In this document: positions 34,018 through 49,888 of the stretch, piece by piece
Layout: each line of letters opens with the position of its first letter
Position numbering within the stretch: the stretch's first letter is position 1
Assembly: GCF_000016645.1 (NCBI RefSeq)
Contig: NC_009441.1
Coordinates: forward strand, 5,580,001-5,644,000
Reading direction: 5' to 3'
DNA length: 64,000 bases
Origin: Flavobacterium johnsoniae UW101
GTDB lineage: Bacteria > Bacteroidota > Bacteroidia > Flavobacteriales > Flavobacteriaceae
The notes under the pieces: model-generated
What the model saw: the letters and a program-made list of their open reading frames with translations, nothing else
The model's database searches: none
What the model was told of the DNA's origin: nothing
Made by a program: the position numbers and the translations under genes

Positions 34018-34069
34018 TTTGGTTTTTATTATATTAAAATTAACTTTGTCTATAGGATTAGTAGAGTTT
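34018..34069 (+). promoter_or_regulatory. Promoter of the SusC/sulfatase unit with conserved start region
   Basis: TTTGG at the -33 position and TAACTTTG at -7 (34041-34048) are 19 bp apart, counted from TTG. Directly downstream is CTATAGGATTAGTAGAGTTT (34050-34069). The third sulfatase has the same three parts with identical spacing (46681-46733). The last block may be the transcript start or a regulator site. Confidence 0.7.
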
Positions 34070-34103: not shown

Positions 34104-34190
34104 GTGAAAACAACCGAAAGCATATCGTATTATATTCTTCCTAAAAAATATACTTATAACACTTTTTGTTATATGTGCTTCTGTTGTTAA
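34104..34190 (+). CDS. 28-residue cysteine-rich leader peptide A
   Basis: A GTG-started frame of 28 codons begins KTTESISYYILPKK and ends TFCYMCFCC followed by TAA. A frame of exactly the same length lies at the same relative position before the third sulfatase; the two share MKT, IL, KK, TYN and the final CYMCxCC. Four Cys in the last seven codons point to a leader that measures Cys-tRNA supply (inference). The frame begins about 55 bp after the -7 element. No function has been described to my knowledge. Confidence 0.65.
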   Translation: MKTTESISYYILPKKYTYNTFCYMCFCC

Positions 34191-34206
34191 TTACCAACAC
34201 TATCCA

Positions 34207-34245
34207 TTCGTTTTATAAAGATTGATACAAAATCTAAAAAACGAA
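34207..34245 (+). promoter_or_regulatory. Hairpin following leader peptide A
   Basis: TTCGTTTT pairs with AAAACGAA, and AGATT with AATCT inside it. It begins 17 nt after the leader stop codon, a distance at which ribosome position could affect folding. The remaining sequence to 34374 is AT-rich with no clear gene. Confidence 0.4.
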
Positions 34246-34374
34246 ATCTCAATTTCACCACCTGATTATTTTTACTGAATTACAAATATCTAATTGATGC
34301 TTAAACTGCAGCAAAAGATTTTGAATATATCTGTGTTTTAAAAAGAAAAAAATTAACCAACTAAAAAAACTAAA

Positions 34375-34407
34375 ATGAAAACAATGCAAAGCTGCTGCTG
34401 TAAATAA
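34375..34407 (+). CDS. 10-residue poly-cysteine mini-ORF
   Basis: ATG followed by nine codons encodes MKTMQSCCCK and stops 8 nt before the conserved CGGCAA hairpin. Three consecutive Cys codons (TGC TGC TGT) so close to a hairpin resemble poly-Cys upstream ORFs that respond to cysteine in actinobacteria. The matching place before the third sulfatase has a mini-ORF of seven codons without Cys, so this feature is not conserved in both leaders. Confidence 0.5.
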   Translation: MKTMQSCCCK

Positions 34408-34415
34408 AAAGAAAA

Positions 34416-34465
34416 GCCATTTCTGCGGCAACAGAAATGGCGGGGCTTAAAGAACATTTATCACT
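34416..34465 (+). ncRNA. Conserved leader RNA element A: CGGCAA-loop hairpin plus downstream box
   Basis: GCCATTTCTG and CAGAAATGGC form a perfect 10-bp stem closing the hexaloop CGGCAA. The box TTAAAGAACATTTATCACT follows at 34447-34465. The copy before the third sulfatase (47023-47074) has the same loop and box, while one stem pair changes from C-G to T-A, which keeps pairing. It lies 78 nt before the SusC start. A translational or transcriptional switch is likely. Confidence 0.65.
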
Positions 34466-34542
34466 AAATCAAGGAAACAGTTAGAGGGTTGAAAATTCAA
34501 CGCTCAGGGCGCCTTGTTAATTATTTAAACCATTACAAAGAA

Positions 34543-37500
34543 ATGAAAAAAAATATAAACCTCATTTTATGGGTTACAATTTTGTTAACATCCCTGCAAT
34601 TTCAGGCACAAAATACAACACCGCTTATTCAATCTAAACTCGACGGAACTGTAGTCGATGACATTACAAATCAGCCTATTATAGGCGCATCAGTAAATAT
34701 TAAAGGTACAACACACGGCGTGCAGACAGATACTGAAGGAAAATTTTATTTTCAGACGGGTCAGAAATTTCCTTACACCTTAATCATTAGTTATATTGGA
34801 TATAAAAAACTCGAAATTGTAGTTGAAAAAAATCCGGTTATTATTCATCTAAAAGAAGAAAGACAAGAGTTAGATGAATTAGTAGTTGTAGGTTACGGAA
34901 CTCAAAAAAGAAAAGATATTACTGGTTCGGTAGCTTCAGTGCCAAAAGCCAACTTATCTCAAGTAACCTCATCGGCAGATAATTTACTTCGCGGTGCGGT
35001 ATCTGGTGTGGTAGTTACACAAAGTTCAGGCCGTCCGGGCGCATCTTCGAGCGTGCGTATTCGCGGCGGGAACTCTATTACAGCAGGTAATGAACCTTTA
35101 TATGTTGTAGACGGAATTTTAATTTACAATGATAACAACAATAGTTCTGCCGGAGTTTCTAATGCCGGAGCGAGTTTAAATGTTATGTCGACAATAAATC
35201 CTGGTGACATTGAATCTATTGAAGTTTTAAAAGATGCTTCGGCAACGGCAATTTACGGTTCCCGCGGTGCAAATGGTGTGGTAATTATTACTACCAAAAA
35301 AGGAACAAAAGGTCAGGACAATATTTCGTATCAGGGATATTTTGGAGTGCAGAATATTTCTAAAAAACTTCATATAATGAATGCCAGTCAATGGGCAAGT
35401 TTAAGAAACGATGTTCAGGCAAGCATTGGTCAGGCACCTTCGTTTACTGATGCTCAAATCGAAGCTTTTAAAAATTCCGGAAGCTACGACTGGCAGTCGG
35501 CGGCGTTTAGAAAAGCAACTCCGGTACAAAACCATCAATTGTCATTTTCAGGCGGTGACGAAAGATCCAGATACTCCATTTCTGCGGGATATTTTGATCA
35601 GGAAGGAATTGTTTTAGCATCAGATTTTAAAAGAATTTCACTTAGAGCCAATTACGAAAAAAATTATTCTCAGAATTTCAAATTTGGCGTAAATGCTAAC
35701 TACAGCAATTCTGTATCAAATGGCGTGGGAACAAACAGCAGCGGCGGAAGAAATCCAAACCCGTTAGTAAGTGTTTTACTAACTGCTCCGGTTGTTCCTA
35801 TCAGAAATCCAGACGGAAGTTATAACGTAACCAACAATCCGTATGCGACATCTGTAAATGGTTTTGTTCCAAATCCGATTAATGATTTAGAAAACACAAT
35901 AAACGAAACCAAAATCAACAGAATCTTAACGAGCTTATTTGGCGAATACAAAATCACTAAAAAACTGACGGCAAAAGTAGCGGTAAGCGGTGATGTTATC
36001 AGTACAAAACAAAATTATTATGCTCCGTCAAATACTTCAAATGGTGCCGGAACAAAAGGTCTGGCTTCTATTGGAGATCGATTAGTGAGTTCTGTATTAA
36101 ATGAAAACACATTGAATTACAACACCAACTTTGGCGAAAATCATAAATTTTCTGCTTTAGGAGGTTATACATTACAATATACCAAAGGTGAAGTCGTAAC
36201 AGCAGGATCCAATACGTTTGTAAACGATGCCAATACTTATAATGCTCTGCAGGATGGTGTAGCTGTAAAACCATACAGCGATGCTTTTGAAAGTGTACTG
36301 AAATCATGGCTGGCAAGAGTCAATTATTCATATAGAGGAAAATATAATTTTACACTTTCTGCACGTGCCGATGGTTCTTCAAGATTTGGTTCAGAATCCC
36401 GCTGGGGTTATTTCCCATCTGCAGGTTTCTCCTGGAATATTACCGATGAAGAATTTGCTAATAACATAAAAGGCGTAACCGAAGCTAAACTTAGAATTAC
36501 AGCCGGAACAACAGGAAACCAGGAAATTGGAAATTACCTTGCCCTGGCTCAAATGGGATCTGTAAATTATTCTTTTGGAGGCACTTTATACACAGGACTT
36601 GCTCCTACCCGACTGGCTAATCCGGATTTAAAATGGGAAAAAACAGATCAGTATAACGTTGGTTTAGATTTATCATTATTAGACCGAAAAATCAATTTTG
36701 TTTTTGATGTGTATTACAAAAAAACAAATGATTTATTAATCAGTGTTCCTGTGCCTTTAACTTCTGGATATGCAACTGTACTTCAAAATATTGGCGGTGT
36801 AGAAAATAAAGGTATCGAGATTGGTTTAAATACAGAAAACCTAAAAACAGAAAAATTCTCATGGAATTCTAACATTGTTTTTTCTGCAAATAGAAACAAA
36901 GTTACTTCTATTGGTAACGGTGTAGATCAGTTCTTTCCTGTTGTACCAAATGGTTCATTATTACAGCAGCAGCCTGTAACGGTAAAAGTAGGTCTGCCGT
37001 TGGGAACTTTCTGGGGATACAAAACAAACGGAATTTTCCAGACGCAGGAAGAAGTGAATACGCAGCCAAAAATCAACAGTTTGGCCAATACAAAAGTTGG
37101 AGACAGAAAATATGTTGATACAAATGGAGACGGTGTAATTACGGCTCTTGATAAAGGAGATTTAGGTTCGTCTCAGCCAAAATTTGTGGGCAGTTTCAGT
37201 AACACGATTTCGTATAATGATTTTGATTTGAATTTCTCTTTTCAGGGATCTTACGGCGGCAAAATCTTCAATGCTTTAAATCAACAGTTAGAAATTTCAA
37301 CTCTTGGAACTAATGCTAATGTGACTCTTGAAGACCGCTGGACGCCGACAAACCCAAGCAACGAAATTCCGAGAGCGACAAGTTCACCGCTTGGAATTGT
37401 TTCTGAGCGTTATGTAGAAGATGCTTCTTTCTTACGCTTAAAATTAATCACACTAGGGTACACTTTACCAAAAAGCGCCTCTAAAAAACTGGGAGCGAAA

Positions 37501-37668
37501 AGTGTTAAATTCTATGTATCGGCAGAAAATTTAGTGACCTGGACAAAATATACAGGCTATGATCCTGAGGTAAGTTCATACGAACAAAACAACTTATATC
37601 CGGGAATTGATTTTGGTTCTTATCCAAACGCAAAAACATTCATCTCGGGCCTGAACGTAACTTTCTAA
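34543..37668 (+). CDS. SusC-like TonB-dependent receptor
   Basis: This outer-membrane receptor imports a ligand captured by the neighbouring SusD protein. The chosen ATG gives KKNINLILWVTILLTSLQFQAQ, a clean signal peptide; the upstream in-frame extension reads through leader sequence. A carboxypeptidase-like domain follows (DGTVVDDITNQPIIGASVNIKGT), then the TonB box/plug region (DELVVVGYGTQKRKDITGSVASV) and a barrel ending in aromatic NVTF. The protein has 1041 residues. With only sulfatases and no glycoside hydrolase downstream, the ligand is probably a sulfate ester other than a large polysaccharide (inference). Confidence 0.93.
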   Translation: MKKNINLILWVTILLTSLQFQAQNTTPLIQSKLDGTVVDDITNQPIIGASVNIKGTTHGVQTDTEGKFYFQTGQKFPYTLIISYIGYKKLEIVVEKNPVIIHLKEERQELDELVVVGYGTQKRKDITGSVASVPKANLSQVTSSADNLLRGAVSGVVVTQSSGRPGASSSVRIRGGNSITAGNEPLYVVDGILIYNDNNNSSAGVSNAGASLNVMSTINPGDIESIEVLKDASATAIYGSRGANGVVIITTKKGTKGQDNISYQGYFGVQNISKKLHIMNASQWASLRNDVQASIGQAPSFTDAQIEAFKNSGSYDWQSAAFRKATPVQNHQLSFSGGDERSRYSISAGYFDQEGIVLASDFKRISLRANYEKNYSQNFKFGVNANYSNSVSNGVGTNSSGGRNPNPLVSVLLTAPVVPIRNPDGSYNVTNNPYATSVNGFVPNPINDLENTINETKINRILTSLFGEYKITKKLTAKVAVSGDVISTKQNYYAPSNTSNGAGTKGLASIGDRLVSSVLNENTLNYNTNFGENHKFSALGGYTLQYTKGEVVTAGSNTFVNDANTYNALQDGVAVKPYSDAFESVLKSWLARVNYSYRGKYNFTLSARADGSSRFGSESRWGYFPSAGFSWNITDEEFANNIKGVTEAKLRITAGTTGNQEIGNYLALAQMGSVNYSFGGTLYTGLAPTRLANPDLKWEKTDQYNVGLDLSLLDRKINFVFDVYYKKTNDLLISVPVPLTSGYATVLQNIGGVENKGIEIGLNTENLKTEKFSWNSNIVFSANRNKVTSIGNGVDQFFPVVPNGSLLQQQPVTVKVGLPLGTFWGYKTNGIFQTQEEVNTQPKINSLANTKVGDRKYVDTNGDGVITALDKGDLGSSQPKFVGSFSNTISYNDFDLNFSFQGSYGGKIFNALNQQLEISTLGTNANVTLEDRWTPTNPSNEIPRATSSPLGIVSERYVEDASFLRLKLITLGYTLPKSASKKLGAKSVKFYVSAENLVTWTKYTGYDPEVSSYEQNNLYPGIDFGSYPNAKTFISGLNVTF

Positions 37669-37683
37669 GTAAAAAAATATAAA

Positions 37684-39156
37684 ATGAAAAAGAGTATTAT
37701 AACATTCCTTTTTAGTGCCGGTTTATTAGTATCGTGCACGGACCTTGAGGTAACACCAACCTCATTTGTTACCGAAGATCAATACTTCGTAACCCAAGAC
37801 GATGCCGTTGCAAGTGTAACTGCCGTATATGCTTCATTAAGCCTTGATCCGGGTGAGCAGAGTTTATTTGGAAGAAACCTATATTTTTTAACTGATATGG
37901 GTTCTGATTATGCTGCTGCCGGAGTTTCGGCAACAAACCCGCAGGTTAGAGCAATGAGCAGTTTAACTCATGATGCCACTAACGACCGTGTTCAGGTAGC
38001 GTGGAGACAAATTTATGCAGGAATCAACAGAGCCAATGTTTCTATTGATAATATCCCAAAAGTATCAGGATCTGAAGTCGTTAAGACAAGATTAATCAAC
38101 GAAGCCAAATTTATTAGAGGTCTTCTTTATTTTCAGGCTGTTCGTATTTGGGGAGGCGTGCCAATTGTTCTGCATGAGCCTACTACTATCGAGCTTGAAA
38201 GTTTAAAAACAAAAAGAAGAACTGTAGACGAAGTGTATGCCCAAATTATTTCTGACTTAACAGCCGCAGAAGCACTGCCTGCCACATATACTGCTGCAGA
38301 TGCAGGACGCGCAACATCTGGTGCGGCAAAAGCAATTTTAGCAAAAGTTTATCTGACAAGAAAAGACTGGCCTAATGCAATTTTAAAATCGAGAGAAGTA
38401 ATTAATGGAGGTTACGGATATGCATTATTCGAAAACTTTCAGGACATTTTTACTAAAACAAAAAAGAACGGAAAAGAACATATTTTCTCTGTTCAGTTTG
38501 AGCCGAATCAGGCCGGAAACGGATCAAGCGGCAGTACGTTTCAGGCGACTTCTTTTACAGGTTTTACAGCAACAGAACCGGCAGATATTATTTCGGATGT
38601 AGCTTTGTTTTATGACATTTATGCTCCCGGAGATACCCGCAGAGATGTAAGTTATGCTAAACAGCTGTTGAACCCAACAACCGGAACATTGTATACTTTT
38701 CCTAAACCAATTTTTAAAAAATATCTGGATTTAACCAATTTGGCGACACCAGGAAACGTAGCAATCAATTTCCCTATTATTCGTTATGCCGACATTTTAT
38801 TGTCTTTGGCAGAAGCTATAAACGAACAAGGCACACCAACTCCTGAAGCTTTTGAACTTCTGAATCAGGTGCGAAGAAGAGCTTACGGAAAAGCCATTAC
38901 AACACCAGACCCAACAGTAGATTTAGCAGGATTAGATCAGGCAGGTTTTAGGGCTGCCATTCAGGAAGAACGCAAAAAAGAATTCGTTCAGGAAGGACAG
39001 CGCTGGTTTGACTTAGTCCGTTGGGGAACTCTGGTTACCGAAGTGAAAAAAGTAACAGCTAAAAATTCGGTTTCAGAAAGAAACAACCTTTACCCTATTC
39101 CACAAAGTGAAAGAAATATTGATCCGGCAGGTTTACCGCAAAACCCTGGATATTAA
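37684..39156 (+). CDS. SusD/RagB-family surface lipoprotein
   Basis: The 490-residue protein starts with the lipoprotein signal KKSIITFLFSAGLLVSC and then has the SusD pattern TPTSFVTEDQYFVTQDDAVASVTAVYASL. Helical repeats follow (INEAKFIRGLLYFQAVRIWGGVP), and the C-terminal part has RRKEFVQEGQRWFDLVRW-type residues. It starts 15 bp after the SusC gene and forms the lid of that receptor. Confidence 0.93.
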   Translation: MKKSIITFLFSAGLLVSCTDLEVTPTSFVTEDQYFVTQDDAVASVTAVYASLSLDPGEQSLFGRNLYFLTDMGSDYAAAGVSATNPQVRAMSSLTHDATNDRVQVAWRQIYAGINRANVSIDNIPKVSGSEVVKTRLINEAKFIRGLLYFQAVRIWGGVPIVLHEPTTIELESLKTKRRTVDEVYAQIISDLTAAEALPATYTAADAGRATSGAAKAILAKVYLTRKDWPNAILKSREVINGGYGYALFENFQDIFTKTKKNGKEHIFSVQFEPNQAGNGSSGSTFQATSFTGFTATEPADIISDVALFYDIYAPGDTRRDVSYAKQLLNPTTGTLYTFPKPIFKKYLDLTNLATPGNVAINFPIIRYADILLSLAEAINEQGTPTPEAFELLNQVRRRAYGKAITTPDPTVDLAGLDQAGFRAAIQEERKKEFVQEGQRWFDLVRWGTLVTEVKKVTAKNSVSERNNLYPIPQSERNIDPAGLPQNPGY

Positions 39157-39187
39157 ACTTGAACCATAAACCAAAAAACTATTAAAG

Positions 39188-41110
39188 ATGAAAAAAATTA
39201 TGAATAACGCTGTAATTAAAAGCTCTAAAAAAGGGCTTTTAATTACTGCAATTCTGGTTGCACAACTAGGAATTGCACAAGAAAAAGAAGAATTTAAAGG
39301 TACAATTGGCAAAACACTGGCTGATTCTAAAGAATACTGGCCAGATCCGGTAAAAGCGCCAAAAGGCGCTCCAAACATTGTCTGGATATTATTGGATGAT
39401 GTTGGATTTGGAGCTTCAAGCGCTTTTGGAGGTTTAATCAATACGCCTACTTTTGATAATCTGGCGAATAACGGTTTACGTTATACAAACTTTCACACTA
39501 CAGCTATTTGCGCGCCAACACGTGCTGCATTATTAACCGGAAGAAATTCTGGAAGAGTTCACGTAAGCGGTTTTTCTCACACTGTTTTATCAGCAGGTTT
39601 TCCCGGCTGGGACGGAAGAATTCCTTCTGATAAAGGAACAATTGCCGAAATTTTACGCGACAATGGCTATAACACTTTTGCCGTTGGTAAATATGGTGTA
39701 ACTCCTGATGAAGAAGCTACAGACGCAGGACCATTTGACAGATGGCCGACTGGAAAAGGTTTCGATCATTTTTACGGATTCCTGGGTTCGCAGACAGACC
39801 AATACAATCCTGATTTAGTGGAAGATCAGACTCATATTAAACCTGACGGACGTCATTTAAATGAATTGATTACAGACAAAGCCATCAGCTATATTAAAAC
39901 ACAGCAGAAAGCGGCGCCGGGAAAACCTTTCTTTTTATACTATGCACCGGGAGCTGTTCACGCACCTCATCAGGTAGCTGAAAAATGGAGCGACGCATAC
40001 AAAGGTAAATTTGACGAAGGTTATGATGTGTACCGCGAAAAAGTTTTAGCGAATCAAAAGAAATTAGGAACTGTTCCGGCTAATGCTGTATTGCCAGAAC
40101 GCAATCCGCTTATTACAGAATGGAAAAAATTAACTCCTGACCAAAAGAAAGTATATGCAAGATTCATGGAAGTTTACGCCGGATTCCTGACTTATACTGA
40201 TTATGAAATTGGAAGAGTGGTTAATTATTTAAAAGAAACCAATCAGCTTGATAATACTCTGATTTTTGTGGCAATTGGAGATAATGGAGCCAGTAAAGAA
40301 GGAACTTTGCAGGGAACGATCAACCAGAGTTTATTTTCACAAGGAAAATCAGATGAAGAAAATCTTCAAAGCAACTTAAACAACATTGGCGAAATTGGAA
40401 CTGCAAAAGGTCTTAATACCAACTATCCTTTAGGATGGGCACAGGCTACAAACGTTCCTTTCAAAAACTGGAAACAAGATGCACATTCTGAAGGAGGAAC
40501 ACGCAATCCGCTGATTGTATTTTATCCAAACGGAATTAAAGACAAAGGCGGTATCAGAAATCAATACAGCCACGTAACCGATTTACTGCCAACGACTTTA
40601 GATATTGCAGGAATTACTGCTCCGGAATATATCCGAAATATTAAACAAGATATTATTCAGGGCTCAACATTCAAAGCTTCATTGGATAATCCAAAAGCAG
40701 AATCTTTACACAAAGTTCAGTACTACTATATCTTTGGCAACAGAGCTATTTATAAAGACGGATGGAAAGCGGCAGCTGCACATTTACCAGATTCATTTGC
40801 CGTAAAACAATCATTAGGGAAAAATGAAAAACCTGCTGCAAGTAATTTTGATACTGATGTTTGGGAATTATACAACCTGAACGAAGATTTTAACGAACGT
40901 AACAATCTGGCTAAAAAGTATCCGGAAAAACTGGCTGAACTTCAAAAATTATTTGACGAACAGGCAAAAGAAAACAATGTTTATCCGTTAATTGACTGGC
41001 AGGACGTGTACAACAGAAGAATTCACAATACTGCTGCTGACAAAGGTAAAACATTACAGGATTTGGTAAAACAAGTAACCAAACCAGCTGATACAGGAAG
41101 CAGTAATTAA
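39188..41110 (+). CDS. Arylsulfatase-type sulfatase 1
   Basis: The 640-residue secreted enzyme has a signal peptide (SSKKGLLITAILVAQLGIAQ) and the sulfatase core: VWILLDDVGFGASSAFGG for metal binding and AICAPTRAALLTGR, where Cys108 in CxPxR is the formylglycine site. FAVGKYGVTPD and FVAIGDNGASKEG follow. It hydrolyses a sulfate ester in the periplasm once matured by a formylglycine-generating enzyme, which is not in this window. It follows SusD by 31 bp. Confidence 0.92.
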   Translation: MKKIMNNAVIKSSKKGLLITAILVAQLGIAQEKEEFKGTIGKTLADSKEYWPDPVKAPKGAPNIVWILLDDVGFGASSAFGGLINTPTFDNLANNGLRYTNFHTTAICAPTRAALLTGRNSGRVHVSGFSHTVLSAGFPGWDGRIPSDKGTIAEILRDNGYNTFAVGKYGVTPDEEATDAGPFDRWPTGKGFDHFYGFLGSQTDQYNPDLVEDQTHIKPDGRHLNELITDKAISYIKTQQKAAPGKPFFLYYAPGAVHAPHQVAEKWSDAYKGKFDEGYDVYREKVLANQKKLGTVPANAVLPERNPLITEWKKLTPDQKKVYARFMEVYAGFLTYTDYEIGRVVNYLKETNQLDNTLIFVAIGDNGASKEGTLQGTINQSLFSQGKSDEENLQSNLNNIGEIGTAKGLNTNYPLGWAQATNVPFKNWKQDAHSEGGTRNPLIVFYPNGIKDKGGIRNQYSHVTDLLPTTLDIAGITAPEYIRNIKQDIIQGSTFKASLDNPKAESLHKVQYYYIFGNRAIYKDGWKAAAAHLPDSFAVKQSLGKNEKPAASNFDTDVWELYNLNEDFNERNNLAKKYPEKLAELQKLFDEQAKENNVYPLIDWQDVYNRRIHNTAADKGKTLQDLVKQVTKPADTGSSN

Positions 41111-41307
41111 TGTATTCTTAACCTGCAGAATTAAAAGTTCTGCGGGTTAAAAATTTCTGACTTTAAACAGAATTATAAAATAAATTGCAAAATTGGTAAA
41201 AGACACATTATAAACACTACTAATTCTATAGAAATACAATATTTTATTTACATTTATAATTACAAACAACTGATTTTCAATAAAAACAAAATAAAATTTA
41301 TAAAATC

Positions 41308-41427
41308 ATGAAACGAGTAGACTACGAAATTATAGGAAAGAAGATTGTAGTAGGAGCAATTTTATTTCTGGTTCCACTGGTAATTTTAGCCGGGGGTTTA
41401 GTATTAATTAATCAATTTTTAAAATAA
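41308..41427 (+). CDS. Small single-span membrane protein, 39 residues
   Basis: The frame encodes MKRVDYEIIGKK, then a hydrophobic helix (IVVGAILFLVPLVILAGGLVLI) and NQFLK. It stops 6 bp before the desaturase-like gene, so it is likely translated in the same operon and may be a partner of that membrane enzyme. I know of no family. Confidence 0.6.
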   Translation: MKRVDYEIIGKKIVVGAILFLVPLVILAGGLVLINQFLK

Positions 41428-41433
41428 GAAATC

Positions 41434-42504
41434 ATGGCAATAGTTCAAAAAGAAAAATTAACAAGAGATTTAACGATCAGTTTTTTTATTTATTCACTGC
41501 CGGTAGCGGCAATTTACCTTTATTTTAAGTTAACGGGCGGAGCGGTAAGCGAATCGCATATTACACTGCCTTCGTTTTTAGAATTTGCAAAACCGGCATT
41601 CGAAAATATCCGCACCTGGGGATTAACCGTTTTCATGGTAGTTTTGGGAATTATAGAATTTGCGGCTGGTTTATATGATGATGAATGGACTGGTGAAGAA
41701 CGTAAAATAGACATTGTTTGTTTCTTAGCTCCAAAATTGCTTTTACCGCCTGTAATTGCTTTTTTCAGTTTAACAGCCTTACCTTATTTATTGCCAGATG
41801 CAGCAAATGCATTATCATGGGTTCCGTTTTGGGGAGGCTTCTTCTTAATCGCAATTGCCGATGATTTAACGCAGTACTGGTACCACAGATTACACCATCA
41901 GGTTCCGTTTTTATGGCGTTTTCACAGAACGCACCATTCAGCTCCGTACATGGGAATGGCAATGGCATCCAGACAAAACTTTATTTATACAATTTTCTTT
42001 TCGCAGATTTATTTAACTGCAACCTTAACCTATTTAGGTTTAGGATTACCGGCTTTATTTGTTTTGGTAATTAAAAGTTTCATCACATTAGGAGCGCATT
42101 CTAGTATTGCCTGGGACAAACCATTTTACAAATACAAAGTTTTACATCCAATTGCATGGGTTTTAGAAAGATTGATTTCTACTCCGGCAACACACCACGC
42201 ACATCACGCCGATACAAGCGGAGACGGTGTTGGTCATTTTAAAGGAAATTTTGGAAACATGTTTTTCATTTGGGACATGATTTTCGGAACCGGATTAATC
42301 ACTCGTAAATTCCCGGAATCTTACGGAACAAAATCATACAAACAAGAAGAATGGTACGCACAATTTTTATGGCCGATATTCAAATCTAAAAAAGAAGGAA
42401 GTTCTCTTGCCGAAGGCGTATTGTCATTTCCGTTAAAAGCCAAACCAGTCGAAAATGCTGTTGAGCAGCCAGTTGAACAAACGCCGGTTTTAGAGCAGGC
42501 ATAA
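41434..42504 (+). CDS. Sterol desaturase/fatty acid hydroxylase-family membrane protein
   Basis: The 356-residue integral membrane protein has the histidine clusters of the diiron hydroxylase family: HRLHHQ, HRTHHS and THHAHHAD, with helices between. The C-terminal 40 residues are low-complexity (repeated PVE and EQ). It would hydroxylate or desaturate a lipid-like substrate with oxygen. Its position between two sulfatase genes suggests it works on the released or imported compound, perhaps a sulfated lipid or sterol (inference). Confidence 0.88.
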   Translation: MAIVQKEKLTRDLTISFFIYSLPVAAIYLYFKLTGGAVSESHITLPSFLEFAKPAFENIRTWGLTVFMVVLGIIEFAAGLYDDEWTGEERKIDIVCFLAPKLLLPPVIAFFSLTALPYLLPDAANALSWVPFWGGFFLIAIADDLTQYWYHRLHHQVPFLWRFHRTHHSAPYMGMAMASRQNFIYTIFFSQIYLTATLTYLGLGLPALFVLVIKSFITLGAHSSIAWDKPFYKYKVLHPIAWVLERLISTPATHHAHHADTSGDGVGHFKGNFGNMFFIWDMIFGTGLITRKFPESYGTKSYKQEEWYAQFLWPIFKSKKEGSSLAEGVLSFPLKAKPVENAVEQPVEQTPVLEQA

Positions 42505-42594
42505 TCTTCAAAAAATTAAGTAAACATAAAGTACGGCAGTGTATTCAAAATTAACCTTGAATACGCTGCCCGCTTTTATCAAAACCTTTTCATT

Positions 42595-43311
42595 ATGAAA
42601 AATAATAAAATCAAAAACAGCATTACAGCCTTGATTCTGCTTTTTGCAATCACAGCATTTTCGCAGAATAAAAGCTCCAATACCGTTTCGCTTGATATTT
42701 TCTACAGCAAAATTCAGGCAGAAAAAAAGCCTCAGATAATTGATGCACGAGGTCCCGAAGAATTTGCTTTAAACCATATTAACGGCGCAGTAAACTTCAA
42801 TTTAGAATCAAAAAATTATGCCGAACAAGTTGCAAAACTAGACAAATCAAAACCTGTTTTCACCTACTCCATTGGAGCAGGAAGAAGCGTTTGGCTCGCC
42901 GATGAATTATTAAAAAACGGTTTTAAAGAAGCTTATAGTCTGGAAGGCGGTATTGCCAACTGGATTGGAAACGGAAAACCCTTTTATGCCAGTTCCAAAA
43001 GCAAATTAACTCTTACGGAATACACTAAAATCGTTGCTGACAACAAAACTGTTTTGGTCGACATTGGATCGAAATACTGCAGCGCATGCACAAAAGTAAA
43101 GCCCGTTTTAGAAACGATCAAAACACAATACGGCGAGAATTTAAAAATCGTAGAAATTGATCTCGAAACCAGTCCGCAGGTAATTGCCGACTTAAAAACG
43201 ATTAAAGTTTTTCCAACTCTGATATTATATCAAAATGGCAAAATTGTTTTCAAAAAAGACGGCTTCAACGATTTAAAAAAAGATGTTGATGTGGCTTTGG
43301 CTTCTAAATAA
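42595..43311 (+). CDS. Rhodanese-thioredoxin fusion protein, exported
   Basis: The 238-residue protein has a signal peptide (ITALILLFAITAFSQ), a rhodanese domain (about 30-130, PQIIDARGPEEFALNHINGAVNF) and a thioredoxin domain with CSAC in IGSKYCSACTKVKP. In the rhodanese loop, where a Cys is expected, the sequence is TYSIGAGRS, so the usual catalytic Cys is missing. It may bind rather than transfer sulfur, with the thioredoxin part as the redox-active piece in the periplasm. It lies in the sulfatase operon. Confidence 0.85.
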   Translation: MKNNKIKNSITALILLFAITAFSQNKSSNTVSLDIFYSKIQAEKKPQIIDARGPEEFALNHINGAVNFNLESKNYAEQVAKLDKSKPVFTYSIGAGRSVWLADELLKNGFKEAYSLEGGIANWIGNGKPFYASSKSKLTLTEYTKIVADNKTVLVDIGSKYCSACTKVKPVLETIKTQYGENLKIVEIDLETSPQVIADLKTIKVFPTLILYQNGKIVFKKDGFNDLKKDVDVALASK

Positions 43312-43338
43312 ACTTAATTCAAAACTAAACTAACCATA

Positions 43339-44958
43339 ATGGCAGTCTATAAAAAAATAACCAAAATTGTAATATCCATTTTAATAGTGCTTCTTATTCT
43401 GGCAGCATTTTTATTCTGGCCCATTAATACCGATGGAACGTTAATACAACCCGACCAAAAATTAGCCGAAGGAAAAGCAGCATTTCTTTCCCAGAAAGAT
43501 ACTTCTGCAGCTTCAGAAAAAAAGCCCAACATTATCATTCTCCTTGCCGATGATTTAGGCAAATATGATATTTCTTTATACGGGGGAAAATCAACGCCAA
43601 CGCCACAAATTGATTCACTTGCTGCATCTGGCGTAACTTTTACAGACGGCTATGTTTCGTCTTCTATTTGTTCGCCTTCACGCGCAGGATTGTTAACCGG
43701 CCGTTATCAGGAACGTTTCGGACATGAATATCAGCCCGGAGACCGATATCCTAAAAACAACTTAGAATATTATGCTTTTAAGTATCTTCTCAATACAAAC
43801 AGCTGGCGTTTAAATCCAAAAATTGAATATCCAAACGATGCCTCAATCGCTACTCAGGGACTTCCAAAATCTGAAATTACTTTTGCTGATTTAGCCAAAA
43901 AACAAGGTTATAGTACCGCCATTATCGGAAAATGGCATTTGGGACATACCAAAGGATTTTTTCCTTTAGACCGAGGCTTCGATTATCATTACGGCTTTTA
44001 TCAGGCATTTTCACTTTTTGCGCCGGAAGATAATAATCCTGATATTATCAACCATCACCATACCGATTTTACCGATAAAACAATTTGGGGCAATGGCCGT
44101 GTAGGAACTGGACAAATCCGCCGAGACAGCACCATTATTGACGAAAAGAAATACCTGACTGAAAAATTTGCAGAAGAAGCCGAAGCTTTTATCGATAAAA
44201 ACAAAAACAAACCGTTTTTGCTTTACGTTCCGTTTAATGCGCCGCACACGCCGTTTCAGGTTCGCAAAAAATATTACGATCGTTTCCCGAATGTAAAAGA
44301 CGAAAACAAACGGGTTTATTTTGCCATGATCAGCGCACTTGATGACGCTATTGGACTAATAAGAGCCAAAGTTAAAAAAGAAGGTCTGGAAGAAAACACC
44401 TTAATTTTCTTCGCCAGCGACAACGGCGGTGCCGATTATACTTATGCGACAACAAACGCACCATTAAAAGGAGGCAAATTTTCTCATTTTGAAGGCGGTG
44501 TAAATGTTCCGTTTGCACTTTCGTGGAAAGGAAAAATCAAACCGCATACTATTTATAAAACACCTGTAAGTTCACTGGATATTTTCAGCACTATTGCAGC
44601 CGTTACACATTCAGGTTTGCCAAAAGACCGAGTTTACGACGGAGTCGATTTAGTAGATGTGGTCAATAACAATAAACAAGCACATCAAAATTTATACTGG
44701 CGTTCCGGCGATGCAAAAGCTATTAGAAGCGGTGACTGGAAATTAATCATCAGCGGTAAAACCCATGAAACCTGGTTATACAATTTAGCCAAAGACAAAT
44801 CTGAAACTACGGATCTGGCTTCAAAAAATCCTGAAAAAGTAAAAGAATTACAAACTGCTTTACAAAACTGGGAAAAAGGATTAATTAAACCTTTATGGCC
44901 AAATCTAACTTATTACGAATTCGATTTTGGTAAACAAAAATACTTTGTTGATTTGTAA
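43339..44958 (+). CDS. Sulfatase 2, membrane-anchored
   Basis: The 539-residue sulfatase begins with an uncleaved-looking anchor (VISILIVLLILAAFLFWPI). The catalytic features are NIIILLADDLGKYDISLYG, the formylglycine site Cys111 in SICSPSRAGLLTGR, IIGKWHLGH, and FFASDNGGADY. The Ser at the second position of CSPSR differs from the CAPTR of the two other sulfatases here, which suggests another substrate. It starts 27 bp after the rhodanese-thioredoxin gene. Confidence 0.92.
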   Translation: MAVYKKITKIVISILIVLLILAAFLFWPINTDGTLIQPDQKLAEGKAAFLSQKDTSAASEKKPNIIILLADDLGKYDISLYGGKSTPTPQIDSLAASGVTFTDGYVSSSICSPSRAGLLTGRYQERFGHEYQPGDRYPKNNLEYYAFKYLLNTNSWRLNPKIEYPNDASIATQGLPKSEITFADLAKKQGYSTAIIGKWHLGHTKGFFPLDRGFDYHYGFYQAFSLFAPEDNNPDIINHHHTDFTDKTIWGNGRVGTGQIRRDSTIIDEKKYLTEKFAEEAEAFIDKNKNKPFLLYVPFNAPHTPFQVRKKYYDRFPNVKDENKRVYFAMISALDDAIGLIRAKVKKEGLEENTLIFFASDNGGADYTYATTNAPLKGGKFSHFEGGVNVPFALSWKGKIKPHTIYKTPVSSLDIFSTIAAVTHSGLPKDRVYDGVDLVDVVNNNKQAHQNLYWRSGDAKAIRSGDWKLIISGKTHETWLYNLAKDKSETTDLASKNPEKVKELQTALQNWEKGLIKPLWPNLTYYEFDFGKQKYFVDL

Positions 44959-45003
44959 TTAAACATAACAAACCCGACAGGTTTTTCATATCAAAAATAA
45001 ATT

Positions 45004-45124
45004 ACCTCCAGCTTTAGCTGGAGGTTTTAAAAATTAAAAGTAAAGAAGGCTTTAGCTAAACTTTTTATTCGGCTAAAGCCTTTTCTGTTTGCAAATTGGT
45101 TACCTCCAGCTGAAGCTCGAGGCA
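45004..45124. repeat. Nested inverted-repeat element, family R2, copy 2
   Basis: CCTCCAGCTTTAGCTGGAGG opens the element and CCTCCAGCTGAAGC closes it. Inner arms are GGCTTTAGC and GGCTAAAGCC. The same words build the middle of the element at 5332-5573. It lies between sulfatase 2 and the YeiH-type gene. Confidence 0.65.
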
Positions 45125-45176
45125 ATTGAAATAAAATCTTAGAATCGATAATTCTTAGAATAATCAAATCAAAAAT

Positions 45177-46436
45177 ATGTCAACTCAATCTAAAAAATTT
45201 AATATCCACGAAGACTGGACTGTTGTAATTCTGGGATTTATAATCATTGGGATTTCACTTTTTATATTTCTTCCCGAAGTTCCCGTTTTTAACTGGTCAA
45301 ACCCTGCCGATTTACAAGCAAAAGTATTCGATCTTCAAAACCTTGAAATTCTTTTTATTCAATTTATATATTTTATTTCCATTGGTACGCTGGGTACTTT
45401 TTTGATTGGAAGACCTGTAAGATATTTTCTATTTACTTTTCCTGTAGTATATATCTTAACATTAATTGCCCTTATTCTGGCTGGAAATGCAGCCATAAAA
45501 TCGATTAATCTCGAAGCTGTAATTTTTAGTTTGATAATTGGTTTGGCTATTGGCAACTTTTTCAAACTTCCGGAATGGTTTCGCTCTGCACTTTCTACAG
45601 AAGTTTTTGTAAAAATTGGACTGGTTTTATTGGGAACCAGTGTTATTTTTTCAGATATTTTAAAGGCAGGATCATTAGGCTTAATACAGGCATTGGTTGT
45701 TGTTATATCTGTCTGGTGTTTTGCCTTTTGGCTTTGCCGAAAATTAAAAGTCGACGATGAACTCACAATGATGATTTCGAGTGCCGTTTCTATCTGCGGT
45801 GTTTCTGCTGCAATTGCAACATCGGGCGCAATAAAAGGCGATTCTAAAAAATTATCATACGTTATTTCAATTGTTTTGGTAACCGCAATTCCCATGATGA
45901 TTTTCATGCCTATTATTGCCAGATATTTCAATTTTCCCGAAGAAGTAACCGGAGCATGGCTTGGCGGCAGTATCGACACATCTGGAGCTGTTGTGGCTTC
46001 GGGAACTTTGGTTGGCGAAACGGCTTTAAAAATCAGTACAATTGTAAAATTCTCTCAAAACGTTTTACTCGGATTAGCTGCTTTTGCCATTTCGGTTTAT
46101 TGGACGTATTCGCATAATACAACATCGGAAGCTGTCGAATCCAAACCAACTTTAAAAGTAATCTGGGAGCGTTTCCCAAAATTCGTAATCGGATTTATCG
46201 CTGCTTCTCTGCTCTTTTCATTTCTAATTACACCAGAAACCAGAAACAACGTAAAAGACAGTTTAAAAAACCTTCAGGGAATTTGGTTTGCACTGGCTTT
46301 TACAAGCATAGGTTTAGAAACCAATTTTAAGGATTTATTGAGCAATAACAGCCGTATACCATTATATGCTTTTTTAATTGCACAGTTATTCAATGTGATT
46401 GTTACATTGATTGTTGCGTTTTTGCTTTTTGGGTAA
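45177..46436 (+). CDS. YeiH/UPF0324-family putative sulfate exporter
   Basis: The 419-residue protein has about ten membrane helices and family landmarks: VKIGLVLLGTSVIFSDILKAG, SAVSICGVSAAIATSGAIKGD, GAWLGGSIDTSGAVVASG and FALAFTSIGLETNFKDLL. The family is annotated as putative sulfate exporters. Export of the sulfate freed by the sulfatases would fit this place, but transport direction is not known. Confidence 0.88.
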   Translation: MSTQSKKFNIHEDWTVVILGFIIIGISLFIFLPEVPVFNWSNPADLQAKVFDLQNLEILFIQFIYFISIGTLGTFLIGRPVRYFLFTFPVVYILTLIALILAGNAAIKSINLEAVIFSLIIGLAIGNFFKLPEWFRSALSTEVFVKIGLVLLGTSVIFSDILKAGSLGLIQALVVVISVWCFAFWLCRKLKVDDELTMMISSAVSICGVSAAIATSGAIKGDSKKLSYVISIVLVTAIPMMIFMPIIARYFNFPEEVTGAWLGGSIDTSGAVVASGTLVGETALKISTIVKFSQNVLLGLAAFAISVYWTYSHNTTSEAVESKPTLKVIWERFPKFVIGFIAASLLFSFLITPETRNNVKDSLKNLQGIWFALAFTSIGLETNFKDLLSNNSRIPLYAFLIAQLFNVIVTLIVAFLLFG

Positions 46437-46440
46437 TAGT

Positions 46441-46575
46441 TGAACCGCAAAGGGCGCTAAGTTTTACGCTAAGCACGCTAAGTCATTGCGAGGAACGAAG
46501 CAGTCACATTAACAATTAGCTGCAAAGCTTGATTAAACAAATGAGATTGCTACGTTCCTCGCAATGACATGCTTT
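46441..46575. repeat. Intergenic inverted repeat (TCATTGCGAGGAACG family)
   Basis: TCATTGCGAGGAACGAAGCA near the left end and TACGTTCCTCGCAATGACAT near the right end are inverted arms. The left flank has GCTAAG-type direct repeats. It follows the YeiH-type gene. Confidence 0.65.
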
Positions 46576-46680
46576 GTATCTTACAGCCAACTAAAACATT
46601 AAAAAACAACAAATTACAACCTAAAAACATACCTATACCCTATTACATCACATCTTTTTTTCAAAAAAAGTAAAGAATAA

Positions 46681-46733
46681 TTTGGTTTTTACAATATTAA
46701 ACATAACTTTGTCTATAGAATTAGTAGAGTTTA
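46681..46733 (+). promoter_or_regulatory. Promoter of the third sulfatase unit with conserved start region
   Basis: TTTGG and TAACTTTG (46704-46711) have the same 19-bp spacing as at the SusC unit. CTATAGAATTAGTAGAGTTT follows, one base different from the SusC copy. Sequence outside these blocks is diverged, so the match is not a recent duplication of the whole region. Confidence 0.7.
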
Positions 46734-46751
46734 AAATTAAAAACTTACATT

Positions 46752-46838
46752 TTGAAAACAGCAGTACACAATACGTTTCACATTCTTCGTAAAAAAAACA
46801 CTTATAACGCTTCTTGTTATATGTGCAGCTGTTGTTAA
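46752..46838 (+). CDS. 28-residue cysteine-rich leader peptide B
   Basis: A TTG-started frame of 28 codons begins KTAVHNTFHILRKK and ends ASCYMCSCC with a TAA stop. It matches leader A in length, position after the promoter and terminal Cys pattern, while the middle residues differ. A longer overlapping frame (46814-47002) exists but is not matched in leader A. The start codon is weak, as in leader A (GTG), which suits a low-level leader. Confidence 0.65.
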   Translation: MKTAVHNTFHILRKKNTYNASCYMCSCC

Positions 46839-47022: not shown

Positions 47023-47074
47023 GGTCATTTCTGCGGCAACAGAAATGACCTGATTTTAAAGAACATTTATCACT
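47023..47074 (+). ncRNA. Conserved leader RNA element B: CGGCAA-loop hairpin plus downstream box
   Basis: GGTCATTTCTG and CAGAAATGACC form an 11-bp stem around the loop CGGCAA, and TTAAAGAACATTTATCACT follows at 47056-47074. Against element A, one stem pair is changed on both strands, which supports a real RNA stem. It lies 39 nt before the start of the sulfatase gene. Confidence 0.65.
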
Positions 47075-47113: not shown

Positions 47114-48769
47114 ATGAATACAAAAATTACAAAACTTCTGTTTTCCATTCTTTTAACCGGAGCTTTCACTTCTCAGGAGTCAAATGCTCAAACCGAAACG
47201 AAACCCAATATTATTCTGATTTTGGTTGATGATATGGGATATTCAGATTTAGGAAATTATGGTTCAGAAATTAAAACACCAAATCTTGATAAACTGGCTT
47301 CAGAAGGTTTACGATTACGCGAATTTTATAACAATTCGATTTGTGCCCCAACAAGGGCTTCTCTCCTAACCGGACAATATCAGCATAAAGCCGGAGTTGG
47401 ATTTTTTGATGTAAATTTAGGTCTACCGGCTTATCAGGGCTACTTAAACAAAGAATCTTTAACGCTTGGAGAAGTTTTCCGTTCTGGCGGTTACAGCACA
47501 CTTTTATCTGGAAAATGGCACGTGGGTTCTGAAGATCAGGCGCAATGGCCGAATCAAAGAGGATTTGACAAATTTTACGGAATCTTAAAAGGCGCCTCAA
47601 ACTATTTTGACACCAAACCGCTTCCATTTGGAAAAACACCTTATCCGGTAAAATTAATCCGCAATAACGAAGAACTGCATCCAAAAGATGATTCATATTA
47701 TTTTACAGATGAAATTGGAAATAATGCAGTGACTTTTTTAGATGAGCAAAACAAAGAAAATAAACCTTTCTTTTTATACTTAGCCTTTACCGCACCTCAC
47801 TGGCCGCTACAGGCAAAACCTATTGATATTGCCAAATACAGAGGAAAATTTGACGAAGGCTGGGATGTTTTAAGAGAAAAAAGAATTCAGAAACTAAAAG
47901 CAAACGGCATTTTACCGGCAGACCAAACTATATCGCCAAGAGATCCTGAAGTTCCGGAATGGAATAAACTAACGTATGACGAAAAGCAATTTTGGAAAGC
48001 TAAAATGGAAGTTTATGCCGCAATGGTCGACAATATGGATCAAAATGTGGGTAAAGTTCTTGACAAACTAAAAGCTTTGAAAAAAGACAAAAATACGCTG
48101 ATTATTTTCATATCAGACAACGGCGCTCAGGGAGGATTCAATACATATAATCCGCTGGGAAGAGGTTTGGTTCGAAATGATGGACCAGTTGGAACTTCGG
48201 GTTCATTTGATTATCAGGAACAAAACTGGGCTTACTTATCTAATACTCCGTTACAGCAATATAAAAACAATATGCATGAAGGCGGTTTTAGTTCGCCGTT
48301 TATTGCCTGGTATCCGTCAAAAATCAAAGCGGGCAGAATTGATAAAGGAACCGGACACATTATTGACCTCGCTCCTACTTTTTATGAACTAGCCGGAATT
48401 GAATACCCAAAAGAATATAATGGTGTGACGACAAACGCCCTGGCTGGAAAAAGTTTGTTACCTGTTTTATTTAATAATGTTTCACAGGTCGACAGAGGCG
48501 CACCATTATTTTGGGAAAGAGCCGGAAACAGAGCCGTTCGCGATGGAAAATGGAAGTTAGTTTCGATTTATCCTTCTTATGAATGGGAATTGTATGATCT
48601 TGAAAAAGACCGAGGAGAAACTACAAATGTAGCCCAACAGAATCCGGCAATCGTAAACAAACTTTCGGCTTCGTATTTTGAATGGGCAGACAAAACGGGA
48701 GTTGTAGAATACAGCAAATTCAAACTAAAACCAGAAACAATGCCAGGCGGTGCGGCACTGAAAAAATAA
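47114..48769 (+). CDS. Arylsulfatase-type sulfatase 3
   Basis: The 551-residue secreted enzyme has a signal peptide (LLFSILLTGAFTSQESNAQ) and IILILVDDMGYSDLGNYGSEI for metal binding. The formylglycine site is Cys77 in SICAPTRASLLTGQ; LLSGKWHVGSEDQAQWPNQRGFDKFYG and IFISDNGAQGGF follow. Bacterial arylsulfatases of this class act in the periplasm after formylglycine maturation. It has its own Cys-leader promoter and is followed by an R1 repeat and then cysK. Confidence 0.93.
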   Translation: MNTKITKLLFSILLTGAFTSQESNAQTETKPNIILILVDDMGYSDLGNYGSEIKTPNLDKLASEGLRLREFYNNSICAPTRASLLTGQYQHKAGVGFFDVNLGLPAYQGYLNKESLTLGEVFRSGGYSTLLSGKWHVGSEDQAQWPNQRGFDKFYGILKGASNYFDTKPLPFGKTPYPVKLIRNNEELHPKDDSYYFTDEIGNNAVTFLDEQNKENKPFFLYLAFTAPHWPLQAKPIDIAKYRGKFDEGWDVLREKRIQKLKANGILPADQTISPRDPEVPEWNKLTYDEKQFWKAKMEVYAAMVDNMDQNVGKVLDKLKALKKDKNTLIIFISDNGAQGGFNTYNPLGRGLVRNDGPVGTSGSFDYQEQNWAYLSNTPLQQYKNNMHEGGFSSPFIAWYPSKIKAGRIDKGTGHIIDLAPTFYELAGIEYPKEYNGVTTNALAGKSLLPVLFNNVSQVDRGAPLFWERAGNRAVRDGKWKLVSIYPSYEWELYDLEKDRGETTNVAQQNPAIVNKLSASYFEWADKTGVVEYSKFKLKPETMPGGAALKK

Positions 48770-48932: not shown

Positions 48933-48967
48933 TTACTCAATAATTGAAGTTTAAAAATATCAAACAC

Positions 48968-49888
48968 ATGAAATATCAAAACATTTTAGAAACCATTGGC
49001 AATACGCCGCACATTAAGCTCAACAAGCTTTTTAAAACCCATGAGGTATGGATTAAGTTAGAAAAATCAAATCCGGGATCGAGTATCAAAGACAGGATTG
49101 CTCTGGCTATGATTGAAGATGCAGAGAAAAAAGGACTTTTAAATCCGGATTCTATTATTATTGAGCCAACATCCGGAAATACCGGAATTGGGCTTTCGTT
49201 AGTGGCAGCCGTAAAAGGGTATAAAGTAATTATTGTAATGCCGGAATCGATGAGTGTTGAACGCCGAAAAATTATCGAAGCTTATGGTGCCGAATATGTT
49301 TTGACACCGAGGGAAAAAGGAACTTCTGGAGCGGTTGAAAAAGCAAATGAACTGGCATCGACTATTAAAAACTCTTTCCTCCCTTCTCAATTTACCAATA
49401 GAGCCAATGTTGAAGTTCACGAAAGAACAACGGCACAGGAAATCCTTGCCGATTTTCCAGACGGTATTGATTATTTGATTACGGGAGTTGGTACAGGCGG
49501 GCACATTACTGGAGTTTCTAAAATTTTGAAACAGCATTTTCCAAATCTTAAAACAATTGCAGTAGAGCCTGCCCTTTCTCCGGTTTTAAGCGGCGGTATT
49601 CCTGCTCCTCACCCATTACAGGGAATTGGCGCCGGATTTATTCCTGAAGTTTTTAACTGTGAATATGTAGATGAGATTGTAACGATCGAAAAAAATGATG
49701 CTTTTTCATTTGCTAAAAAAATAGCAAAAGAGGAAGGCATTTTTGGAGGAATTTCTACTGGAGCAGCATTAGCAGCGGTTTCTAAAAAAATAAAAAATAT
49801 TCCGGAAGATGCCGTAATACTGACTTTTAATTATGATACCGGAGAACGTTATCTTTCTGTAGAAGAATTATTCGATTTTTTCTCATAA
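48968..49888 (+). CDS. cysK: Cysteine synthase A
   Basis: CysK joins O-acetylserine and sulfide into cysteine using PLP. The 306-residue product has [14 protein letters not shown], the PLP lysine in [46 protein letters not shown] and [14 protein letters not shown]. The ATG before KYQNILE is preferred over a TTG 24 bp upstream. Its place between a sulfatase and the cysteine desulfurase encapsulin makes it the centre of the sulfur flow of this region. Confidence 0.95.

Follow-up and report, generated by a model that had tools for sequence, protein, structure and literature searches.

Cysteine-tailed leader frames before sulfur-scavenging operons of Flavobacterium johnsoniae as probable sensors of charged Cys-tRNA

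A stretch of 64,000 nucleotides of the Flavobacterium johnsoniae UW101 genome (NC_009441.1, positions 5,580,001 to 5,644,000, forward strand; hereafter the window) contains two short leader open reading frames (ORFs), LP1a and LP1b, together LP1, which end in a run of cysteine codons and stand before sulfur-scavenging operons; upstream of SusC, a second Cys-tailed ORF, LP2, follows LP1a. Judged from sequence comparison, these leaders probably act by ribosome-mediated attenuation in response to charged Cys-tRNA. This is the best reading because the Cys codons are conserved, sulfur genes lie downstream, and the metY leader of the same genome bears a terminator.

34104..34190, plus strand: LP1a, leader ORF 1, 28 codons, GTG start, reading VKTTESISYYILPKKYTYNTFCYMCFCC and then a stop, tail CYMCFCC.
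46752..46838, plus strand: LP1b, leader ORF, 28 codons, TTG start, reading LKTAVHNTFHILRKKNTYNASCYMCSCC and then a stop, tail CYMCSCC.

The original prediction, made from the letters of the window, had pointed to two frames of identical length with non-ATG starts, sharing MKT, IL, KK, TYN and a CYMCxCC tail; both frames are present with equal length, and the common residues are seen in both translations. Cys occupies codons 22, 25, 27 and 28, i.e., four of the last seven. The pattern CYMCxCC-TAA occurs twice in the single-contig genome of 6,096,872 bases, only at LP1a and LP1b, while CxxCxCC followed by a stop is found twice in the window versus none in 200 first-order Markov windows of equal composition. 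A looser criterion (at least three Cys in the last eight codons) gave five places on the gene strand, all intergenic and in sulfur loci; on the opposite strand it gave five places in the window and four in the met cluster, five of these inside genes. The intergenic comparison revealed that the two leaders can be aligned outside the ORFs as well. At gathering score, Rfam gave no match in the LP1 leaders and, across the window, only the Flavo-1 RNA (RF01705; 25044-25119, minus strand); scanning the SusC leader at E values up to 10 returned no sensible cis-regulatory family.

Comparison of genomes indicates that the Cys-tailed frame is conserved, that its Cys codons vary synonymously, and that mostly sulfur-acquisition genes or their SusC importer lie downstream. 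The DNA pattern of the tail was found in 25 of 150 Flavobacterium genomes (reversed control, 0). The 150 pattern matches read comprise 30 loci from this genus search and at least 120 from a named collection; the collections overlap and the matches are non-independent. Counts by downstream gene, here and below, hold among the matches listed: SusC follows in 100 cases, a sulfatase in 23, a serine acetyltransferase in 11 and an encapsulin in 2, so that 136 of 150 matches precede such genes, the recurrence upstream of sulfur genes for which the original prediction had proposed a search. The remainder are metX (2, in Mucilaginibacter), stretches with no readable gene (9) and chance-like matches (3); 14 of the 150 rows, left as "other" by the script, were classified manually. 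The identity of the serine acetyltransferase is based on NF041874, just above its cut-off, TIGR01172 being below its own.

Since the tail search selects on the tail itself, a peptide-blind search was made with a conserved box. The order of the leader is the promoter element TAACTTTG, the box CTATAGRATTAGTAGAGTTT, LP1, a hairpin named H3, and then the motif AAAGAACATTTATCACT.

34041..34048, plus strand: promoter -7 element TAACTTTG, TAnnTTTG type, predicted from sequence.
46704..46711, plus strand: promoter -7 element TAACTTTG, predicted from sequence.
34050..34069, plus strand: box CTATAGGATTAGTAGAGTTT, conserved, where transcription probably starts; with up to three mismatches it is found in 30 of the 150 genomes of the genus (control, none).
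46713..46732, plus strand: box CTATAGAATTAGTAGAGTTT, conserved, where transcription probably starts; the second of two copies in the own genome.

The search, in the same 150 genomes, gave 51 places in those 30 genomes, of which 29, one per genome, were newly read. All 29 loci contain an intact frame, open from its start to the Cys tail without frameshift or early stop, and the start is TTG or GTG in every case, in a search that allowed ATG. Among 28 distinct box-found ORFs, the last seven codons include three Cys in 2 ORFs, four in 23 and five in 3, and the tails vary (CYMCFCC, CCMCFCC, GYMCFCC, CYMSICC, CCMCNCF, RMCCCC). A degenerate form of the box was dropped, being no better in the own genome than its reversed control (9 matches vs 18); the own-genome copies used are the two exact ones and one beside an H3 variant (locus L198). 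The -7 consensus TAnnTTTG is as quoted in a passage of PMC7366714. LP1 begins about 55 nt past TAACTTTG, the transcription start itself being predicted, and this distance speaks against leaderless initiation. Among the matches listed (80 of 120 loci titled), the box together with a 28-codon LP1 is confined to Flavobacterium and "Flavobacteriaceae bacterium". The broader tail CxMCxCC gave nine matches in seven genomes of the class (295 genomes); the seven matches in six genomes other than the own one include three leaders in two Flavobacterium genomes, one of them CCMC-tailed, and one leader (L186) with an S-adenosylmethionine (SAM) riboswitch. Matches L187, L189 and L190 were set aside as apparent stretches within genes, not leaders.

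The codon-level check proposed with the original prediction was run, and it bears out conservation of the tail: Cys codons vary synonymously, and the ratio of nonsynonymous to synonymous differences (pN/pS) in the tail is 0.18 (110 ORFs) or 0.22 (26 box-found ORFs), versus 0.68 and 0.75 in the body. An A is found at position -3 in 109 of 110 ORFs, a Kozak-like position in F. johnsoniae according to a passage of PMC6847099. One of 115 script-called ORFs, that of L091, starts out of frame and lacks Cys; in its true frame this locus is intact. The pN/pS values and the variety of tails thus argue that conservation acts on the terminal Cys-codon run of a translated frame rather than on a protein.

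In the metY leader of the own genome, anatomy points to strong intrinsic termination and to a pairing that might act as antiterminator, behind a box similar to that of the window. The gene (TIGR01326) is preceded by a Met/Cys-rich leader, MKTIAGKNMMCCSMMQMCIQPCCCQK, at L270:13791-13871 (G000:C1:1715791-1715871), behind the box CTATCGAATTAGTCGAG; the predicted terminator has -18.2 kcal/mol and is followed by TTTTTT. It contains CTTTTGG, to which CCAAAAG in the final codons of the leader is complementary by eye, and this may allow antitermination as in classical attenuation. The minimum-energy fold places the 5' end of this leader onto its own Cys codons. The CCCQK-stop pattern is present in 12 of 150 Flavobacterium genomes (reversed control, five matches): four, the own included, are metY leaders, all with a terminator, and eight are chance-like. 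Between homoserine dehydrogenase and a SAM riboswitch, the own genome has a second leader, which ends ICVCVC and whose predicted terminator has -15.2 kcal/mol. A small ORF, found by eye, occurs between each met-cluster Cys leader with its terminator and the next gene (L270, about 13963-14152 and 17270-17462), and the two small proteins have the motif SLLFxMY in common; the same locus has a SAM-II riboswitch match above gathering score (L270:10232-10338, minus strand), and the gene just 3' of it on that strand is presumably metK, as judged from its N-terminus.

Cys-tailed ORFs were also looked for at SAM riboswitches of the class, for which 116 matches were obtained in 119 genomes. Seventy were examined, the 30 best and 40 picked from genomes with at least two matches, and two incomplete loci were dropped; in the remaining 68, with gene classes assigned by short sequence signatures, Cys-tailed ORFs were found at metY (6 of 8), cysH (1 of 1) and unclassified genes (2 of 6), and were missing at metH (0 of 35), metB/patB-like (0 of 9) and other genes (0 of 5). 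The 30 best matches, mostly metH, showed no Cys tails by the criterion used; the two metY loci scored negative apparently have, by eye, short frames in which CC lies close to the end. At metY, the Cys-tailed ORFs start 7-14 nt 3' of the riboswitch. At L042, L086 and L186, Rfam confirmed the SAM riboswitch; at these loci the Cys leader precedes what we take, from the N-termini and without a family call, to be metX or an OsmC-like gene. L042 and L086 (Mucilaginibacter) combine the riboswitch, a 33-codon ORF ending CYMCRCC and metX, i.e., an LP1-like tail on an otherwise unrelated peptide; at L254 the riboswitch is followed by the Cys leader MKKTTTFPSKTTVANAFKFAAACCCCQKFAACCCKC and then by a cysH-like gene.

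The operons preceded by LP1 in the window, and the genes near them, are as follows.

34543..37668, plus strand: SusC/RagA TonB-dependent transporter (TIGR04056 above cut-off, scanned as 34489-37668).
37684..39156, plus strand: SusD family lipoprotein (PF07980, PF14322).
39188..41110, plus strand: sulfatase 1 (PF00884).
43339..44958, plus strand: sulfatase 2 (PF00884).
47114..48769, plus strand: sulfatase 3 (PF00884).
48944..49888, plus strand: cysK, cysteine synthase A (TIGR01139 above cut-off).
49994..50914, plus strand: family 2A encapsulin shell (NF041162 above cut-off), directly after cysK.
50898..52832, plus strand: encapsulin cargo cysteine desulfurase (NF041166 above cut-off).

The first ATG of SusC is at 34543, the TTG at 34489 being merely a mechanical ORF start, which is corrected here. 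The sulfatases, cysK and cysteine desulfurase that the original prediction named near the LP1 frames are borne out by PF00884, TIGR01139 and NF041166; further neighbours are a rhodanese-thioredoxin protein and a YeiH-like protein (below NCBIfam cut-off). In a cyanobacterium, sulfur starvation induces an encapsulin with cysteine desulfurase cargo, as a passage of PMC8049743 reports.

Downstream of LP1, the leaders contain further elements, most of them conserved. H3, like LP2 and the box, goes beyond what the original prediction described.

34375..34407, plus strand: LP2, leader ORF 2, ATG start, MKTMQSCCCK, absent from the original prediction.
34207..34245, plus strand: possible hairpin H1 directly 3' of LP1 (TTCGTTT..AACGAA), by eye in the alignment, weak.
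34416..34441, plus strand: hairpin H3, GCCATTTCTG-CGGCAA-CAGAAATGGC, with a 10-bp stem in the consensus fold.
47023..47050, plus strand: hairpin H3, GGTCATTTCTG-CGGCAA-CAGAAATGACC, from sequence, leader alignment and genome search.
34449..34465, plus strand: motif AAAGAACATTTATCACT 3' of H3, conserved, from alignments.
47058..47074, plus strand: motif AAAGAACATTTATCACT, conserved, from comparison of the window leaders.
34470..34516, plus strand: hairpin H4 before SusC; compensatory changes occur in the inner stem, while the outer pairing of CAAGG with CCTTG was seen by eye.

LP2 is Cys-tailed in 92 of 100 SusC-type leaders, and the core motif of H3 is present in 98. This 22-base core, CATTTCTG-CGGCAA-CAGAAATG, is identical at 34418-34439 and 47026-47047, its two exact copies in the genome. 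H3 is near-invariant in 38 of 41 non-redundant SusC-type leaders, the 38 being the complete aligned set, and for this reason its stem presents no double change there; between the two window leaders, an outer stem pair differs compensatorily (GCC..GGC vs GTC..GAC). By eye, the segment GGCAACAGAAAUG, which spans the loop and 3' arm of H3, is complementary both to UGUUGC in LP2 and to UUCUGUUG in the tail of LP1, and these segments may compete for pairing. LP1 and H3 also precede the encapsulin shell gene at L029 and L081, the L029 shell being 96% identical to that of the window. Elsewhere in the genome (L286, G000:C1:5424500-5434400), there is a SusC/SusD-like operon whose SusC is 30% identical to the one in the window; at L198 its box is accompanied by a short frame that ends in CNFC, by MKKRMCCR, which by eye resembles LP2, and by a variant of H3 whose loop is UUGCAG, while the remaining genes of this operon gave no match to the sulfur genes of the window.

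In the proposed mechanism, LP1 would be translated, and its C-terminal Cys codons, together with those of LP2 before SusC, would gauge charged Cys-tRNA. With ample cysteine, the ribosome would pass the Cys codons, terminate at the stop and depart; the LP1 5' end would then pair with the Cys codons (helix P1) and a second helix, P2, would form, giving low expression of SusC/SusD/sulfatase, serine acetyltransferase or encapsulin genes. When cysteine is scarce, a ribosome stalled at the Cys codons would keep P1 and P2 open and shield or expose the downstream RNA, so that the sulfur-scavenging genes would be expressed. The output at the LP1 operons might be Rho-dependent termination, or translational control through LP2 and H3. 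In the window, 8 nt separate the end of LP2 from H3; a ribosome at the LP2 stop would therefore cover the foot of H3, and one stalled at the Cys codons would leave H3 free.

34110..34118, plus strand: 5' strand of helix P1 within LP1, partner 34179-34187 in the last three codons; from pair measures and a synonymous-recoding control.
34153..34161, plus strand: 5' strand of helix P2 within LP1, partner 34167-34175; compensatory changes in the RMCCCC clade.

P1 joins codons 3-5 to the last three LP1 codons, while the P2 hairpin sits immediately before CxCC and is mostly recovered by RNAalifold unaided. The helices were tested on 52 divergent ORFs, picked from 110 by more than five differences. 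Paired cells amount to 84.3% versus 81.4 (sd 0.4) in shuffles, and the covariation score to 0.146 versus 0.099, with 0 of 500 shuffles reaching either value and slid versions of the helices scoring lower. Synonymous recoding of LP1 gave a mean z of -2.0, 8.4% of recodings being at least equally stable; when LP1 5' ends were swapped between different tails, the energy went from -14.4 (native) to -13.3, a loss of only about 1 kcal/mol.

Several observations weigh against attenuation by a Cys-tRNA sensor as set out here. Two of the five pair measures of P1 and P2 lie within the shuffles (double-change pairs, 6 vs 3.9, 42 of 500; pair types, 19 vs 17.7, 129 of 500), the P2 double changes stem from a single clade of four sequences, and P1 pairs in 79.9% of cells. 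The LP1 body is hardly constrained as a protein, and in the box-found set pN/pS of the whole ORF is 0.63 in frame +2 and 1.23 in frame +1; given the frame +2 value, it is the tail alone that argues for translation. By the criteria used, U-tract hairpins are present in few LP1 leaders (4 of 41 SusC-type, 0 of 15 sulfatase-type, 1 of 8 cysE-type); thus, of the traits of a trp-type attenuator, LP1 displays the run of end-product codons and the amino-acid-level conservation of control codons, while its leaders mostly lack the intrinsic terminator with antiterminator. The accessory elements are unevenly distributed: H3 is missing from the serine-acetyltransferase leaders (0 of 11) and from 7 of 23 sulfatase leaders, LP2 from all of the latter (0 of 23), and the SusC leaders L007 and L017 lost the Cys run of LP2 yet retain H3. 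In the own genome, no Cys frame directly precedes the nearest cysE-like gene (49% identity), and the metX loci among the surveyed SAM riboswitches were without a Cys-tailed ORF (0 of 4).

It is conceivable, if rather unlikely, that the Cys-tRNA sensor works by translational control, a stalled ribosome refolding the start region of the first gene without transcription termination. Such control would fit the scarcity of U-tract terminators in LP1 leaders, the closeness of H4 upstream of SusC, and the 8-nt gap between LP2 and H3 in the window, owing to which a ribosome there would disturb H3. However, 26 nt lie between H4 and the SusC ATG, the start codon is unpaired in the consensus fold, and the LP1 stop is mostly 180-435 nt from the gene, which is far for coupling. 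The last step at the LP1 operons would rather be termination without a U-tract, for example Rho-dependent. The RNA after LP1 is C-rich and G-poor (C 0.173 and G 0.104 in SusC-type leaders vs 0.143 and 0.122 in the background); this stretch and H1, which is graded weak because it is absent from the RNAalifold consensus, are mere hints of Rho-dependent termination.

An RNA or DNA regulatory element, i.e., an operator box at the transcription start and H3, with the ORF being incidental, is improbable. Box and H3 are less variable than the LP1 body, conserved helices lie within LP1 itself, and the box may additionally bind a regulator as a protein operator; however, an element of this kind leaves unexplained the low pN/pS of the tail (0.18-0.22), the persistence of Cys in tails whose nucleotides, and even the codons next to Cys, have changed (RMCCCC, CCMC), and the Cys runs that likewise end the unrelated metY and cysH leader sequences. 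Functional Cys-rich products, such as metal-binding peptides or metal-sensing nascent chains (of which examples are known, PMC9973294), are very improbable: CYMCxCC could bind metal, but the peptide body is barely constrained as protein, tails differ provided that they keep Cys, most genes downstream are sulfur genes, and in metY leaders Met codons are mixed with Cys codons and a terminator is present.

Attenuation through charged Cys-tRNA, the favoured reading, might tentatively be extended to a Bacteroidota-wide Cys-codon leader sensor with three wirings, an idea with somewhat less than an even chance of holding. A Cys leader alone with a terminator would be the wiring of Flavobacterium metY; a Cys leader behind a SAM riboswitch would form a two-input SAM-plus-cysteine switch (metY, metX and an OsmC-like gene of other families); the doubled ORFs with the invariant hairpin, whose GGCAACAGAAAUG is complementary to tandem Cys codons, would be a terminator-less device controlling SusCD, sulfatases and the sulfur-storage encapsulin. 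If the Cys-tRNA reading is true, Bacteroidota possess a cysteine sensor built solely from ribosome, tRNA and RNA; it would also suggest that amino-acid supply, besides glycan, can control SusCD nutrient importers, and sulfatases, cysteine synthesis and the sulfur encapsulin would be joined in one cysteine-responsive set.

Cysteine-responsive leaders of actinobacteria, mentioned in the original prediction, are confirmed by passages on cys leader ORFs of Mycobacterium, P. acnes and B. longum (PMC1262725) and on the leaderless polycysteine short ORFs found in mycobacteria (Canestrari et al. 2020, via PMC9094748). As described there, these ORFs are, like LP1, short, with Cys-codon runs near the stop and sulfur genes downstream, and the Mycobacterium leaders similarly have no conserved terminator hairpin (PMC1262725). 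Unlike them, LP1 starts about 55 nt past the -7 element, uses TTG/GTG starts, contains internal helices and belongs to the phylum Bacteroidota; a second Cys ORF, an invariant hairpin, and SusCD, sulfatase and encapsulin targets are further differences. The uORFC-8-2 motif upstream of Rhodobacterales cysS, for which a passage of PMC8632094 proposes attenuation, is also a Cys-codon upstream ORF with Cys codons within a stem; however, its tandem Cys are usually at codons 14-15, and it has an AUG start, a 3' U-run and cysS as its only gene, whereas LP1 has its Cys at the 3' end, TTG/GTG starts (29 of 29), mostly no U-run and other genes. The same general mechanism as for LP1 was suggested for amino-acid operons of Flavobacterium psychrophilum, in the same genus (PMC9723704), and leader-peptide-like short ORFs are known in Bacteroides thetaiotaomicron 5' untranslated regions, in the same phylum (PMC7366714); unlike LP1, the main-text passages of these two papers name no cysteine case, and their supplements may hold one. 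The SAM-I riboswitch (RF00162) lies immediately upstream of Cys-tailed ORFs at metY and metX in other Bacteroidota, in contrast to the LP1 leaders of the window, which match no Rfam family at gathering score. A full-text literature search for a cysteine leader in Bacteroidota yielded none among the matches listed, which are open-licence papers seen mostly as titles and abstract openings. As far as these searches reach, the new features of the present leaders are their phylum, their gene targets, the mostly terminator-less architecture, the double ORF with an invariant hairpin, and the pairing of Cys-tailed ORFs with SAM riboswitches.

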